IMG/VR virus record: IMGVR_UViG_3300030329_001258
Span: 1 to 32,246 of that record
Length of the DNA: 32,246 nt
Source of the DNA: a virus
Strand: one strand, 5' to 3'
The position numbers and the translations under genes were made by a program. Below, in pieces: positions 4,161-17,142 of the stretch; position 1 is the stretch's first letter; each line of letters starts with the position of its first letter. The notes below the pieces were generated by a model. That model was not told where the DNA came from and did no database searches. It worked only from the letters and a program-made list of their open reading frames with translations.

Positions 4161-5015
4161 CTATAGCTTTTTATGCTTTTCATTCAGGATCTTTGGTTCT
4201 ATCGCATTCCAGTCAAGCCTGTGATGCAATCTTCTGTCCGTTACTCCCATTGGCTGAACGGTGCAGGTAGATGGCTCATACATGATTGTGTAAAAGCTTT
4301 TCACATAGGTGCCAGCGTCCAAATATAGCTCTGTAAGACCTCCAGCATTTGTTTGTGTTGGCCTTTGTAGCAACGAGAGCATTGTGTACGTGAAGAAGAG
4401 GTCGCCTTTTCTGGTCAGCGATGTATATGTATTCACATCATCATTTAGTTGGCCCATGAACCAGAATCGCCGTTTTGTAGAACACAAGAAGGAGTTCATG
4501 GCTTTTCTTGTTAATTGAACCGCTAATCCATACTTTCCATTCTCGCCACCAATGAAGTCTCCATCCTGTGCAAAGGCGATCGTCTTGGTTGGCGTGTTCT
4601 GGTAAAACTCAATCAGCTTTTCCAATACTTCATCCAGCGATCTGATTGGTATCCTTGATGTGTAGTGGCCTTCCGGGGTTGATTTGTAATGAAGGCTTGT
4701 ATAGTCATCATCCAGTTGCATGAAGTATTCGCATCCGACCTGCTCGGCCAAGTCAAATGATGCGTTGCGTGCAAATACCACGCTGCGCTTAGAAAAGTTG
4801 TCCCCCTGATCCATCTTTTGGGCTATTTCATCCTTCGAGAATACAAGCACTTTGTCCTGCCCGTACCGCTCAACATATTCGGGTAGTGTCTCGTCCTTAT
4901 CGTCAACAACCAAATAAGTCTTGCCAGTATAGCCGCAATTGGATAATGTTTGATATGTTGCGACATTATCCGGTCGGCCGTGAGTAAGTATGAATATGCA
5001 GAAGTCATCCCGCAT
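4161..5015 (-). CDS. GT-A-like glycosyltransferase, possible DNA-base modifier
   Basis: The 284-aa protein looks like a single-domain GT-A nucleotide-sugar transferase. It has an N-terminal strand with THGRPDN at residues 11-17, a VVDDKDE segment near 37-43, FARNASFDLA at 81-90, and an LDDDY metal-binding DxD-type motif at 101-105. This layout recalls the glycosyltransferases found with phage DNA hypermodification genes (TAGT group), but I cannot prove membership. ATG 5015 has a strong site (GGAAAGG) and is preferred over the upstream TTG at 5033. It overlaps the ParB-domain gene by 11 nt, and that pairing supports a role on phage DNA. Alternative: glycosylation of a virion protein. Confidence 0.7.
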   Translation of the reverse strand: MRDDFCIFILTHGRPDNVATYQTLSNCGYTGKTYLVVDDKDETLPEYVERYGQDKVLVFSKDEIAQKMDQGDNFSKRSVVFARNASFDLAEQVGCEYFMQLDDDYTSLHYKSTPEGHYTSRIPIRSLDEVLEKLIEFYQNTPTKTIAFAQDGDFIGGENGKYGLAVQLTRKAMNSFLCSTKRRFWFMGQLNDDVNTYTSLTRKGDLFFTYTMLSLLQRPTQTNAGGLTELYLDAGTYVKSFYTIMYEPSTCTVQPMGVTDRRLHHRLDWNAIEPKILNEKHKKL

Positions 5016-5763
5016 GGTGGTCCTTTCCAACAAGCTTTACGATGTCTTCGGTCATATTGATGAACCCATTTTCGATGGCTTTATCAAAGTCGATAATTAC
5101 CAAAGCTGATTCTTCCATGAACTCCTGCATTTCTTTATTGCAGTGAGCATAAAACTCAGCGATCTTGGCGTGATTGAATTGTGTGTGTCTGCCAGCCGCG
5201 GTTAGAAGAAAAGCTTTTTCTTCGCCATCCAAGTCGCTGCTTTCGATTTTCTTAACTAGCCTGTCTGTGTTGAATTTGTCATACAGTTCGTGGATTTCAG
5301 GCTTGGGTCCAGTTGGCTCATAGATCGGAGCCTCGATCTTTCGTGTATATAGGCTGTCATCTGACAAGCCGTCTGCCAACTCTGCTATTTCGTCTTGGCT
5401 AAATCCTGTCGCATCGGCTAGCTCTTGGCTCTCCTTTGCTATTTCTTCTATTTGCAATATGAGTGTATCAATATCCCATTCAGCCAATTCAGCAGTACGA
5501 TTATCGGCAATCGCGTATGCTGATGCTTCTGTTCCAACTAGATCTGTTTCAACTACATCAACATATTCCCATCCAAGTAAGCGTGCGGCTTCTAATAGTC
5601 CATTGCCAGCCAGTACCACATTAGCGGCATTTACCACAATTGGCTTTTGCTGTCCAAATCGCTTCAGGCTTTCCAGTATCGCGTCGATGTTGTGTTCGCT
5701 GTGGAGTCTGGCATTCTTTGGATCGTGCTTAAGATCCTCCACTTTCTTGCTTTCCGTTTTCAT
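5005..5763 (-). CDS. ParB-like nuclease/CTPase-domain protein
   Basis: The N-terminal 95 residues form a ParB/sulfiredoxin-type domain: KHDPKNARLHSEHNIDAILESLK is followed by QQKPIVVN at about 38-45, the box II-like LAGNGLLEAAR at 51-61, and ADNRTAELAEW at 86-96. In phages such domains usually accompany DNA methylases or other DNA modifiers rather than a partition system; there is no ParA here. The C-terminal 150 residues are helical and unrecognised. ATG 5763 follows a clear AGAGGA site. The gene overlaps the sigma-like gene upstream (35 nt) and the glycosyltransferase downstream (11 nt). Confidence 0.8.
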   Translation of the reverse strand: MKTESKKVEDLKHDPKNARLHSEHNIDAILESLKRFGQQKPIVVNAANVVLAGNGLLEAARLLGWEYVDVVETDLVGTEASAYAIADNRTAELAEWDIDTLILQIEEIAKESQELADATGFSQDEIAELADGLSDDSLYTRKIEAPIYEPTGPKPEIHELYDKFNTDRLVKKIESSDLDGEEKAFLLTAAGRHTQFNHAKIAEFYAHCNKEMQEFMEESALVIIDFDKAIENGFINMTEDIVKLVGKDHHAG

Positions 5764-9983: not shown

Positions 9984-10804
9984 CAGAATGCGCTTTCAGC
10001 GCTTTCACGCTTTCTGGATTCCCATGTGGATTCGTCCTCCAGATAGCCCATTTGTTCTATCCAAGTCAGTGGCTGTCTCCAGAATCCAGATTGTCCCTCT
10101 GTGCTTTCGTAATATGCTGTAATCTTTTGGGACAAGTATTCCGCTGCTTGAGGCCTGTCTTTCATCTGTGCATCGTCAGGATTGTTTTGGATTAGATCCG
10201 ATAAGGCATCGTCGATTGCAAAGCATGTCTCTTTGTACTTCGTAAGCCTGCTTTTGGGTATCTTGTTGACCACCTTGGCAACATCCTGATCTTGCCTAAC
10301 TCGAAAGAATCTTGATGCGCTTATGTCTTTTGAAGTTGAAGTTGAAGTTGAAGTTGAAGTTGAAGCCATTGAAATTGTTTGGGTGGGGCTTTCGCTGACC
10401 ATTGGCTCAACCATTGACTCGCGCTCCATTGCCCGCTTGGCTTGAGTGATTGACCCACCCTTGCGTCCACCATATCCCATTTTCTGTCGAGCGGTTTCCT
10501 CACGGCACATTCTGCGACATACGAATGAGTTATCTGACTCCCGGCGTTCGGTCACACCAGTGTTAAGTAGTTCCAATATGATTTGCTCCGCATCTTCGCC
10601 TGATATTCGAGACAGGTGGTCTGGTGTTATCGGCAGTCCATTTGAATGAAGCAGCACACCTCGTTCTGGCGATTCGTGCATAAGACACAGCATGGTGATC
10701 CATAGCCCTTTCGCTGCCAATGACACACTTTGTAGGGATGGGTCTTTCATCCAATCGCCGGGGTAGAATTGGAATGCCGGCAGCTTCTTTGATTTAGACA
10801 TCAT
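9983..10804 (-). CDS. Replisome organizer / replication initiator-like protein
   Basis: The N-terminus (residues 8-90) holds FQFYPGDWMKDPSLQSVSLAAKGLW and a helix-rich region, typical of the winged-helix domain (DUF1376-like) of phage replication initiators. A linker at about 147-158 is an alternating Thr-Ser run encoded by a hexanucleotide repeat. The C-terminal region (QKITAYYESTEGQSGFWRQPLTWIEQMGYL) may contact the loader or helicase. Proteins of this type bind the phage origin and recruit replication proteins. An origin may lie in or near this gene, but I could not locate iterons. ATG 10804 follows GAAAGGATGA. Confidence 0.7.
   Translation of the reverse strand: MMSKSKKLPAFQFYPGDWMKDPSLQSVSLAAKGLWITMLCLMHESPERGVLLHSNGLPITPDHLSRISGEDAEQIILELLNTGVTERRESDNSFVCRRMCREETARQKMGYGGRKGGSITQAKRAMERESMVEPMVSESPTQTISMASTSTSTSTSTSKDISASRFFRVRQDQDVAKVVNKIPKSRLTKYKETCFAIDDALSDLIQNNPDDAQMKDRPQAAEYLSQKITAYYESTEGQSGFWRQPLTWIEQMGYLEDESTWESRKRESAESAF
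10331..10365. repeat. Hexanucleotide tandem repeat (TGAAGT)n
   Basis: Almost six copies of TGAAGT lie inside the replication gene and encode an alternating Ser-Thr linker on the - strand. Because the unit is six bases, copy-number changes would lengthen or shorten the linker without a frameshift. Confidence 0.95.
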
Positions 10805-11138
10805 TCATCCTTTCGATTAGCTTGGACTTGGCCGCATACGACAGACCCTCGTTGGTAATTCGGCAGATTCTTGCAGTGCCTCCGGACTTGGTCTTTTTGG
10901 TTTTGCCGGTTGGCTTTATGTATCCCATATTGCGCAGTTCACTACATCGCTTCCATCCGTGTTTAATATGGGCCAAGTCGGATGCCTCCTCGTCAGTCAT
11001 TGCACCAAGTCGCCAATATGTCATCAGGAGCTTGTGTCTCTGTGTTTCCCTTGCTCCCTTGTTAAGTTTCGATGCCGCTTGACTTGTCTCTGGATCACTG
11101 GTGCGTGCCAATTCCGAAAAGTTTATTTGACTGTTCAT
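10794..11138 (-). CDS. Winged-helix DNA-binding protein
   Basis: The 114-aa protein reads like a small winged helix: a helix RHKLLMTYWRLGAMTDEEASDLA, a recognition-type helix GWKRCSELRNMGYIKPTG, and a basic wing KTKKTKSGGTARICRITNEG. The first 20 residues (ARTSDPETSQAASKLN) resemble the N-terminus of other phage proteins of this class. It could be a regulator or a replication accessory factor. The start has two tandem GAAAGGATGA elements upstream and an 11-nt overlap with the next gene. Confidence 0.65.
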   Translation of the reverse strand: MNSQINFSELARTSDPETSQAASKLNKGARETQRHKLLMTYWRLGAMTDEEASDLAHIKHGWKRCSELRNMGYIKPTGKTKKTKSGGTARICRITNEGLSYAAKSKLIERMNDV

Positions 11139-11150
11139 CCTTTCATCCTT

Positions 11151-11645
11151 TCATTTAATACGAAGATGTGACTTTCGTTTCCCAAGCCGAGCGAATGGCA
11201 ACGTTTCGCCCTTCTCAAGTATTTGACGAATCCTGCCGGTATCCGGTGTCCACTTGGCTTCCTTGAATACATGAGGCACATCATCCTCGTGTATCTCCAA
11301 GGGCAGCTTACCGCCGTTCTCGCAGACACTGATGGTGAATAGGCGTGTTTGCACATTGGTTTCACCGCATTCGATTAGACGCTGCTTGAGACGTTCTTGG
11401 AGCCCCATTGCTGTCCGATGTATTGATTCAGCGGATTCTCTAAGTCTTGCGGCTTCCATTGATCGTGCCGCGGATTTTGCCTTCAGGTCTTTGATTAACA
11501 TCACATACGCTTCTGTTTTGTCAGCCAGCGCATCCTTCAAATTGTCAAGGTATTTCCCAATCTCATGATCGAGATGACTTTCGTCCGTATCTGCCTCGAC
11601 CAGCTTTGATATTGCCTTGATCTCTTCGGTCAGTTGATATAGCAT
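11151..11645 (-). CDS. Siphovirus Gp157-like protein
   Basis: The 164-aa protein follows the Gp157 pattern: MLYQLTEE at the N-terminus, a long coiled-coil region with EAYVMLIKDLKAK and a Glu/Arg-rich part, LKQRLIECGETNVQT, then a short beta domain ending in LGKRKSHLRIK. Gp157 proteins are common next to phage recombinases; a link to phage resistance has been suggested, but the mechanism is not known. ATG 11645 follows GAAAGGATGAGAAC. A large RNA hairpin lies just upstream. Confidence 0.8.
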   Translation of the reverse strand: MLYQLTEEIKAISKLVEADTDESHLDHEIGKYLDNLKDALADKTEAYVMLIKDLKAKSAARSMEAARLRESAESIHRTAMGLQERLKQRLIECGETNVQTRLFTISVCENGGKLPLEIHEDDVPHVFKEAKWTPDTGRIRQILEKGETLPFARLGKRKSHLRIK

Positions 11646-14583: not shown

Positions 14584-16047
14584 CTAACGCAGCAAGAACG
14601 TGTCGGGCTCATCAAGCGCGATCTTAGCGATGCGCGCTCCAATCTTTGTCAGTGCCTTGTAATAGCTATCTGATAGATGATTGGATTCGTAATGGTGTCC
14701 AAACTCGTGAATCAGTAGGTCAAGTATGTCTGTCATGTTGGTTGAATTGAAAAACTTGCGTCCCAGTCTTCCAACATTGAATACCAGACAACCAGTCCCA
14801 TAAGTGGCCGCGAATGGCCACGTTACGTCATTCACGAATCTTACCGATACCGAGCAGGCCAAGATCTTGCTTGCAAGTCTTTTAGCAAGACCTGCTACCG
14901 CCTCCATTTCCGGAGTGATCTTCTCCATGTCTTTAAGTGGAGTGCCATCTTCGGAATATGGCTTTGGCGAAGGCGTAACTTGCCCGGCAGGACTAACCGA
15001 TCCGTATTCCTTGGCATTCCGATGCTGGTCAGCCGTTAGACTTCTGCCATAGATCACAGCATATCCTGCTGACTGAGCACGGGCGTTTGCCTCTGGATCA
15101 GACGGATCAAACATGACCCGCTTCTTTCCATACCGAAGATCGAGAACTTTGTTAACAGATTCCTTTGACGCTTCCGGATGACCCGTTGCTTCGGATACCC
15201 AATTTGCTGCCGAGTCTTCTTTTGTGAGAAGTTCCGTTGTGTTATTCACAACGGACATTCGAAGACGGCGAAGGTACGAGGGTTGGACATTGTCCCGATC
15301 CATATTTAGCGGCACCTTTTGTTGGATATCAACATGGAAACGGTCTTCTTCAAGGGAGACAATTGGAATCCCCATCTCGTAGATCGTTGCCTGTTCATCG
15401 TCCTTGGTTTCGTAAATATTGACCTTCGTACTACGCTTTGTCGAAAATAGATTGCCTTCGCTATCTGTTCCGACTGTCGGCATCTGAATCTCGTAAGACG
15501 CGACTGACTTGCGTTCCAGAAGCGGGACATCATTAAGTGTTGTCTCGATTCCTTCAGGCGGGATCAAACGTGAACATCCTGCGATGATCTCTTCACGTTC
15601 CGCTTTTGTCATCTTAATGATGGCAGTGAAACGTGAACCTTGACTTCGATCGTTCTTGCATTTTTGACGCTTGCCTTCTGATGTGAAGACAATTGTTCTT
15701 CCTACAGTCTCGATCTTGGCTTCCTTACACACGGAAAGCACGAGCTTTTCGCCAAGGTTGAATCTGCCACGCTTGGTGGCATCGCTTTTCTTTTCTGATT
15801 CAGCAAAGAGGGTGAAAGCGTGAGCCATGTCGGAAAAGCCATTAGGGTCATCATCCTCGACAATCAGCGTGGAATATCCTCGCGTATCTGAACTATCAAG
15901 ACGAATGTTGACTTTCGTCACGTTCTGATCCCATGCGTTCTGGATCAGTTCGTTAATAACAAATGACTTGTCACGATTGGCAACTAAGCTTGAAAGACCC
16001 TTGCGGTCTACTTCAAACCAGTTATCGCTAGTGTGGCTAGTGTGCAT
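14584..16047 (-). CDS. GHKL ATPase fused to HExxH metalloprotease-like domain
   Basis: The N-terminal half of this 487-aa protein is a GHKL (Hsp90/MutL/MORC-like) ATP-binding fold: VINELIQNAWDQN (residues 30-42) is the N box, VEDDDPNGF (63-71) a degenerate G1 box and GRFNLGEK (94-101) the G2 box. A middle region with ALNDVPLLERK-like and IPLNMDRDNVQPSYLRR-like sequence follows, as in transducer domains. Near the end, LIHEFGHHYESNH (about 445-457) is a HExxH zinc-protease motif. I know of no well-described phage protein with this pairing. It could disable a host or defence protein, or remodel a target with ATP. ATG 16047 follows AGAAAGGATGTCAAC. It is the first gene of the - strand transcript. 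Confidence 0.8.
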   Translation of the reverse strand: MHTSHTSDNWFEVDRKGLSSLVANRDKSFVINELIQNAWDQNVTKVNIRLDSSDTRGYSTLIVEDDDPNGFSDMAHAFTLFAESEKKSDATKRGRFNLGEKLVLSVCKEAKIETVGRTIVFTSEGKRQKCKNDRSQGSRFTAIIKMTKAEREEIIAGCSRLIPPEGIETTLNDVPLLERKSVASYEIQMPTVGTDSEGNLFSTKRSTKVNIYETKDDEQATIYEMGIPIVSLEEDRFHVDIQQKVPLNMDRDNVQPSYLRRLRMSVVNNTTELLTKEDSAANWVSEATGHPEASKESVNKVLDLRYGKKRVMFDPSDPEANARAQSAGYAVIYGRSLTADQHRNAKEYGSVSPAGQVTPSPKPYSEDGTPLKDMEKITPEMEAVAGLAKRLASKILACSVSVRFVNDVTWPFAATYGTGCLVFNVGRLGRKFFNSTNMTDILDLLIHEFGHHYESNHLSDSYYKALTKIGARIAKIALDEPDTFLLR

Positions 16048-16062
16048 GTTGACATCCTTTCT

Positions 16063-16217: not shown

Positions 16218-16246
16218 ATTATATCACAAATCTTCCAAATATGATT
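16218..16246 (-). promoter_or_regulatory. Probable sigma-70 extended -10 promoter, - strand
   Basis: On the - strand a perfect TATAAT (16223-16218) is preceded by TGA, giving the extended -10 TGATATAAT. The -35 region is weak (AATCAT at a 17-base spacing). Transcription would start near 16211 and read the GHKL gene and the recombination module. Confidence 0.7.
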
Positions 16247-16540: not shown

Positions 16541-16578
16541 ATTTACCGCTTACTCGGAGCGGCTCATTGAAAGGATGA
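16541..16578 (+). repeat. Leader repeat, copy 1 (hairpin plus Shine-Dalgarno)
   Basis: This 38-nt unit is repeated at 16813-16850 with one mismatch. It holds CCGCT-TACTCGG-AGCGG, a 5-bp stem with a seven-base loop, and then the ribosome site GAAAGGATGA. It is preceded by a strong GC-rich hairpin. Confidence 0.9.
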
Positions 16579-16581
16579 ACA

Positions 16582-16776
16582 ATGATTGATTTTGACCCAG
16601 AAATTTTCTTGAACGCAATCAAAAAGGTTGATCGAGAGATTGAAAAACAAGAAGCGATACACGTAAGGCCTTCAGATCAACTGTGTTGGCGAAGTCGTGT
16701 TCGCGAACTCAAGGCACAAAAGAAGCTGCTTGCCGATACCCTTGCTGCCTTTATAGCTGATTCAAAGACATGGTAA
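16582..16776 (+). CDS. Small early protein, unknown (64 aa)
   Basis: The 64-aa product is helical and charged (NAIKKVDREIEKQEAIHV, SRVRELKAQKKLLADTLAAFIAD) and probably forms a helical hairpin. It is the first gene of the + operon, translated from ATG 16582 after the repeated GAAAGGATGA leader. No family is recognised; position and size suggest an early host-interaction role. Confidence 0.65.
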   Translation: MIDFDPEIFLNAIKKVDREIEKQEAIHVRPSDQLCWRSRVRELKAQKKLLADTLAAFIADSKTW

Positions 16777-16812: not shown

Positions 16813-16850
16813 ATTTACCGCTTACTCGGAGCGGCTTATTGAAAGGATGA
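16813..16850 (+). repeat. Leader repeat, copy 2 (hairpin plus Shine-Dalgarno)
   Basis: This is the second copy of the 38-nt leader unit, 37 of 38 bases identical to 16541-16578. It is preceded by the hairpin CAACCCC-TACC-GGGGTTG (16789-16806). The preceding hairpins differ in sequence between copies, but both are perfect stems. Confidence 0.9.
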
Positions 16851-16854
16851 GAAC

Positions 16855-17142
16855 ATGCTAGTTGACACAATGACGACCCACTGCTTTCGCACACCAGAGG
16901 ATTTATGTGAGGCGTTCGAGAGATTGGAATCGGTTGGGATCACGGACTACTCATGGAGTATTACGAAGAGAATGTTTTGGCGTGGCGAGCGAATCTTCAA
17001 TGTCGCGATCACTGCAAAGTATCTCGACCCACGCGCACAACGGAAAGGTCAGCAGACAATATTGTTGATCACTAAAGAACAACTGCACGATTTCGTGATT
17101 TCGCACGACTTCGCCAACACAGTTGAAAGGATGAATGTATGA
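16855..17142 (+). CDS. Small early protein, unknown (95 aa)
   Basis: The 95-aa protein has a mixed fold with CFRTPEDLCEAFERLESVGITDYSW, a basic middle and a strand ILLITKEQLHDFVI. No family is recognised. ATG 16855 lies 4 nt after the leader repeat; the in-frame ATG at codon 6 is an alternative. It overlaps the next gene by 4 nt (ATGA). Confidence 0.6.
   Translation: MLVDTMTTHCFRTPEDLCEAFERLESVGITDYSWSITKRMFWRGERIFNVAITAKYLDPRAQRKGQQTILLITKEQLHDFVISHDFANTVERMNV

Follow-up and report, generated by a model that had tools for sequence, protein, structure and literature searches.

Locus and genome setting

The window (the whole stretch of DNA analysed, 32,246 nucleotides) is a 32-kb viral record that encodes a major head protein, a head maturation protease, a head-tail adaptor and a terminase large subunit. 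It comes from a tailed phage, and the record is probably incomplete. On its minus strand, at 14584..16047 with the stop codon included, a gene with an ATG start encodes a 487-aa protein in which a GHKL (Bergerat-fold) ATPase domain is followed by a transducer domain and a zincin domain, an architecture that we regard as practically certain. The start and end of this ORF match the coordinates in the first-pass annotation exactly, and the strand, which that annotation did not give, is minus.

A ribosome-binding site, AAAGGA, was read from the sequence at 16055..16060 (minus strand), and a weak extended -10 promoter-like element, TGATATAAT, lies at 16218..16226 (minus strand), 171 nt upstream of the ATG. 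This is the sole exact copy of the element in the window, where 0.66 copies are expected by chance. The ORFs upstream of the gene, 16582-16776 and 16855-17142, run in the opposite (plus) direction. The earlier proposal that this is the first gene of its transcript, which would read leftward, is plausible because the upstream ORFs are divergent and both a ribosome-binding site and the weak -10-like element are present. The genes that follow on the same strand comprise a 104-aa ORF and genes for a DUF932-type protein (phrog_1221), an Erf-like annealing protein, a Gam-like protein, a replisome organizer, a RusA-like resolvase and an exonuclease. The GHKL-zincin gene thus probably heads a DNA-metabolism operon and, judged by its position alone, is probably expressed early.

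A 37-nt leader is duplicated on the plus strand of the window (16542-16578 and 16814-16850), with copies that differ at one base. It contains an inverted repeat and a AAAGGATGA ribosome-binding site, it stands directly before two small plus-strand ORFs, and no such duplication is expected by chance. A gene at 4161-5033 (minus strand) strongly matches phrog_842 (E 5e-63), annotated as a beta-glucosyl-HMC-alpha-glucosyltransferase, and adjoins a ParB-like/DNA-methyltransferase-like gene at 5005-5763; DNA modification is possible. RNA families and tRNAs were sought across the window and none was found.

The ATPase module

Conservation was assessed in 91 members of the family, which share 29-50% identity with the window protein, and in a 96-row alignment. 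The N, G1 and G2-type GHKL boxes were recovered early in the protein, as had been claimed, and all lie within residues 1-101. The N box ELIQNAWD (residues 33-40; 15928..15951, minus strand) retains E33, N37 and D40 in 95/96 relatives, with E33 the expected general base and N37 the expected Mg ligand. In the G1 box DDDPNG (residues 65-70; 15838..15855, minus strand), a DxGxG variant, D65 and G70 are kept in 95/96 rows and P68 in 91/96. The G2 box GRFNLGEK (residues 94-101; 15745..15768, minus strand) keeps G94, N97, G99, E100 and K101, again in 95/96. Among the 91 members E33, N37, D40, D65, G70, G94, N97, G99, E100 and K101 are invariant, and so are R205, E224, Q243, R251, H447, E448, H451 and H457.

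The first-pass annotation had called the G1 box degenerate and ATP use uncertain. The box is instead a lineage-conserved variant, DDxPxGF, with invariant Asp and last Gly, and one relative (L014) reads DNGP-GF. These two observations weaken the doubt: ATP use is likelier than had been feared, and the conserved boxes make ATP binding by the GHKL domain likely. Pfam HATPase_c_3 matched the 487-aa protein with 33.5 bits against a cut-off of 25 (E 5e-8) and was matched by 76/91 relatives. With N, G1 and G2 in order on a Bergerat fold, and G1 as a variant, the protein falls among the GHKL ATPases.

An S5-like transducer domain, comparable to the Hsp90 middle domain or the second domain of MORC, was placed at approximately residues 160-290 (15178..15570, minus strand) by AlphaFold2 and Foldseek. 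Conservation within it singles out QKVPLNMDR (residues 243-251; 15295..15321, minus strand) as the segment with the candidate phosphate-sensing Lys/Arg; Q243 and R251 are kept in 96/96 rows and K244 in 93/96. By its motif, R251 may be equivalent to the Hsp90 middle-domain Arg; a profile-profile comparison with HtpG, using a low-diversity HtpG set, gave no signal for this equivalence. A small alpha/beta connector, delimited by secondary structure at approximately residues 295-357 (14977..15165, minus strand) and modelled with pLDDT >90 over most of its length, leads to the C-terminal domain.

The C-terminal zincin domain

Residues 379-487 (14587..14913, minus strand) form a zincin domain of the WLM/YgjP-like minigluzincin kind, as judged by fold order and profile match. 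The HEFGHH that had been reported near residue 447 is found at 447-452, within the zinc-site motif HEFGHHYESNH (residues 447-457; 14677..14709, minus strand), whose H447, E448, H451 and H457 are invariant in 91 sequences. From knowledge of the family, H447, H451 and H457 are the predicted zinc ligands and E448 the predicted base. The AlphaFold2 model has a helix at 379-395, strands at 401-405, 414-417 and 420-424, and helices at 435-450 and 460-479, so that the last ~110 residues show the zincin order alpha-beta-beta-beta-alpha-alpha. This is the same core order as in the zincins of phage polyvalent proteins, which have three strands with one helix before and two after (PMC5512222). The HExxH ends helix 435-450, the penultimate helix of this order, and H457, a third conserved His 6 residues on as in Wss1, lies in the following loop.

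In an hhalign comparison with 30 YgjP proteins the domain scored 95.9% (E 6e-9) with the HExxH and the third His in register, whereas column-shuffled controls stayed below 2%. Matches to Pfam were weaker: individual relatives reached E 1.5e-4 for WLM and E 1.6e-4 for YgjP at best, and the 487-aa protein itself scored 12.4 bits against the WLM cut-off of 26. Weak profile matches to Wss1, abylysin and myroilysin fell at the correct place. The H447/E448/H451/H457 spacing (HExxH-x5-H) is identical to that of Wss1, whose zinc ligands H115, H119 and H125 stand beside E116 (PMC5557861). Wss1 also has an Asn near the zinc on its third strand (PMC5557861); N424, on the third strand here, is kept in 87/96 relatives, and YgjP carries Asn at the aligned position.

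The HExxH, the His six residues after the second His and the zincin order of strands and helices place the domain best with the WLM/YgjP/SprT minigluzincins. The earlier description of it as zinc-protease-like was right; the type, for which gluzincin domains had been named, needs amending. A thermolysin-type gluzincin was rejected, as helix 460-479 has no invariant or near-invariant Glu while H457 is invariant. A metzincin was likewise rejected, since position 454, their Gly, is mostly E, S or A and is G in only 7/96 rows. HExxH by itself is a common motif; HExxH-x5-H appeared in just 4/4800 shuffled family members. A chance HExxH in a plain GHKL protein is ruled out, for practical purposes, by the conservation, the third His, the fold and the profile match.

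H447 and E448 are kept in 93/96 aligned relatives and H451 and H457 in 94/96. The three rows without H447/E448 are one at a contig end (L045), one whose match stops at about residue 375 (L113) and one truncated copy (L099). The last, from Candidatus Desulfobacillus denitrificans (L099:5998-7329), stops at 443 aa, ahead of the HExxH, and is flanked by two 317-aa transposase-like ORFs with the same start (4698-5651 and 10416-11369).

Predicted fold

Structure prediction with AlphaFold2 from the 91-row alignment (pLDDT 92.9, pTM 0.84), followed by a Foldseek search of structural databases, confirmed a GHKL fold. Against the PDB, TRAP1/Hsp90 ranked top (E 1e-13) in an alignment that spans the N and middle domains, with overall TM-scores of only 0.36-0.45 for the TRAP1 matches. 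MORC2/3/4, Topo VI-B and a PMS1-type N-terminal domain followed, and the alignments to TRAP1, MORC, TopoVI-B and PMS1-type N-terminal domains cover 300+ columns. Against viral models, two unnamed proteins came top (E 4e-35 and 5e-17), together with several phage RIIA proteins. The N-domain and transducer stand in a Hsp90-like arrangement, as in the Hsp90-type N+M module; on the model, the ATPase is of the Hsp90/MORC/MutL type with a transducer domain, more than a bare GHKL domain.

Distribution and neighbourhoods

Full-length relatives (>100) were found in viral contigs and plasmids and, here and there, in contigs from bacteria and archaea. Of 50,697 annotated phage records only one has a gene for a relative; it belongs to an uncultured phage of 485 kb, and the identity is 48%. 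In IMG/VR a first scan found 17 relatives and an alignment scan 150 stretches, of which the best 80, on contigs of ~4 to 435 kb, were used. Relatives were present on 29 genome contigs (Pseudomonadota, Planctomycetota, Chloroflexota, Actinomycetota and others, some of them archaeal) and matched six plasmid records, three over most of their length. These three near-full copies, from Methylibium petroleiphilum PM1 (WP_011831646.1), Bosea and Rhodovastum, are each annotated as a hypothetical protein. In the Rhodovastum atsumiense plasmid (L230:1770-9449) the homologue stands beside a DEAD/DEAH-box helicase, with a HerA-SIR2 anti-phage pair a few kb away.

A core host gene was rejected: among 198 relatives of a Burkholderiales carrier genome, a full-length copy was present in one, the carrier itself. 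Viral and cellular rows were interleaved in a quick 91-row tree with long branches, which implies 13 changes, at least 8 of them forced by starred branches. The GHKL-zincin gene is an accessory gene of mobile elements. No conserved partner gene emerged from neighbour clustering or from a scan of 137 neighbours against Pfam and PHROGs; DNA-modification genes (Mom, DNA methylases) surround some relatives. Among known anti-phage defence systems (PADLOC), the match was limited to TmtA, a much longer protein, and covered its GHKL part alone.

Related phage families

Near relatives of the gene, two more phage families, A3 and A4, were met whose proteins have a comparable layout. In A4 (L034:4070-5383, L046:3498-4874, L052:825-2129, L090:3020-4357 on the minus strand, L239:1986-3326, and CDS173 of Moorella phage MTATph1) the GHKL boxes stand in the usual order with HExxH in the C-terminal part, and the ATPase and protease parts each match the window protein's family by profile (~95%). 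Some A4 cousins, in phages of Pseudomonas and Escherichia (e.g. phage Ab18 ORF34 and 4MG_173), are shorter and without the zincin domain. The joining of GHKL and HExxH protease domains in one phage protein, as first noticed, thus stands; its supposed rarity does not, since the combination is widespread in phages and has two cousin families.

A3 (L116:4001-5443, L027:7759-9201, L022:7241-8677, L042:4445-5947, and gp29 of Pseudomonas phage YuA, L238:2498-3676) aligned with A4 along the whole length (99.8%, E 8e-29) except in the N-box segment. In A3 this segment, REFISNAID, follows G1 and G2 and lies within a stretch inserted with respect to A4, and the AlphaFold2 model (pLDDT 91.4) shows the G1 strand, the G2 helix, strands and then the N-box helix at 112-130. 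From this alignment and model, the GHKL domain of A3 appears to be circularly permuted. When a rotated A3 was compared with the N-terminal profile of the window protein's family, a shuffled control scored equally high. A sequential Foldseek search of the A3 model gave no significant Hsp90 match (E 5e-3), which is expected of a permutation and is not proof of one. For the C-terminal domain Foldseek returned abylysin, with probability 0.89 but E 0.27. With EExxH in place of HExxH, this domain may have lost its activity or be altered. An A3 or A4 gene is also present in 12/85 viral contigs that carry the window protein's family, far above expectation for families so rare, and large contigs favour such co-occurrence.

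Discussion

Like TRAP1 and HtpG, the phage protein has a GHKL N-domain followed by a middle/transducer domain, and the best Foldseek matches span both; the N, G1 and G2 boxes also align in order with those of HtpG, at low probability. It differs from Hsp90 in having a minigluzincin where Hsp90 has its C-terminal dimerisation domain, and with this zincin and no Pfam HSP90 (PF00183) match at E <= 1 it is not a member of the Hsp90 family. The ATPase-transducer-effector layout is shared with MutL/PMS1 and MORC, whose effectors are an endonuclease or a CW/chromatin domain rather than a zinc protease. T4-type RIIA is likewise a phage GHKL and transducer protein with a differing C-terminal part, from which our protein differs in length and C-terminal domain; its PHROG matches were confined to phrog_6203 and phrog_6077, both unnamed, and the likeness to RIIA is thus one of fold only. 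Phrog_6077 matches residues 31-331 weakly and neighbouring cousin-type proteins strongly, and its 366 positions equal the length of the short cousins without a zincin domain. In contrast to WLM/Wss1, YgjP and SprT, the protease domain is here fused behind an Hsp90-type ATPase, with a sequence below the Pfam cut-off. We conclude that this is a new architecture made from known parts and widespread in phages and plasmids. A search of open-access literature turned up no account of a GHKL-zincin fusion, and priority is to that extent provisional.

In the named families, dimers of GHKL-transducer proteins close in response to ATP, and enzymes of the WLM type act as zinc proteases. The best explanation, which we favour by a modest degree, is that the accessory protein of phages and plasmids is an ATP-operated clamp that bears a zinc protease. 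Its N-terminal Bergerat domain would bind ATP and, together with the transducer, bring about closure of a homodimer, as happens in Hsp90, MORC and MutL. A client protein, or a stretch of DNA with its bound proteins, would be caught by this closure, and the C-terminal WLM/YgjP-type minigluzincin would be brought into place or activated and would cut the trapped protein. The likeliest clients would be host proteins that the phage meets early in infection, either DNA-bound ones or ones that act in defence, because the gene is read from the front of a DNA-metabolism, probably early, operon. It is quite probable that both the ATPase and the zinc site are functional; ATP binding, dimer closure, zinc binding and peptidase activity we infer from knowledge of the families. 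That ATP gates proteolysis is a hypothesis with even chances, and a host or defence protein as client is a tentative one. The DNA-metabolism operon and the mobile distribution favour such a client, with a DNA-clearing role close behind.

In a DNA-clearing role the protein would be a MORC/MutL-like DNA clamp, and its WLM/YgjP domain would free phage DNA of proteins stuck to it, a Wss1/SPRTN-like task in replication or recombination, instead of serving as a counter-defence weapon. WLM proteases, which attack DNA-protein crosslinks (PMC5557861, PMC4559962), belong to its closest protease relatives, the operon contains recombination and replication genes, and the fold matches include N-terminal domains of the MORC and MutL types. 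Yet most phages do without the gene, its neighbours are not conserved, no DNA-binding domain was identified in the 487-aa protein, and the fold is matched most strongly by Hsp90/TRAP1, which is a protein chaperone, and not by MutL; we consider this role unlikely. The patchy, mobile distribution in phages and plasmids, the N-terminal fold in common with phage RIIA and the Mom and DNA methylase genes around some relatives would also suit a counter-defence protease, a rIIA-like factor with a protease effector that cuts a specific host immune protein. Iyer et al. (2021) discussed rIIA proteins in counter-defence as GHKL proteins whose C-termini vary and, apart from these, zincins of jumbo phages, SprT-like ones among them (PMC7824862). 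However, no consistent link to anti-defence genes was found, and the Rhodovastum plasmid copy near HerA-SIR2 genes fits a role in defence equally, so that so specific a function seems somewhat improbable.

Hsp90 being the best fold match, the protein might also be an Hsp90-like phage chaperone or scaffold, with a zincin domain that merely binds clients or processes the protein itself; the EExxH of A3 and the lack of the whole domain in the short A4 cousins point the same way. Against it, 91 diverse sequences share the four residues of the zinc site without exception, a constancy seldom needed for mere binding, and we judge a pure chaperone to be distinctly unlikely. The main weakness of the favoured reading is that the zincin domain persists without HExxH in A3, which leaves binding without cleavage some probability, though the zinc site is strict in the family studied here.

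To our knowledge, known ATP-dependent proteases use AAA+ motors. The ATP-operated clamp favoured here could represent a new class of ATP-gated proteases, in which Hsp90/MutL-like Bergerat clamps carry a WLM/YgjP effector, with at least three sister families, one of them permuted; we put this a little short of an even chance. If ATP closure does gate proteolysis, a GHKL-powered protease would join the known ATP-dependent proteases, and phages would gain a switchable, single-gene means of removing a chosen host protein. The apparent permutation of the ATPase domain in A3 would amount to a Bergerat fold circularly permuted in nature. The function of rIIA-kind phage GHKL proteins would also become directly testable, because the cleavable substrates of a protease can be trapped.
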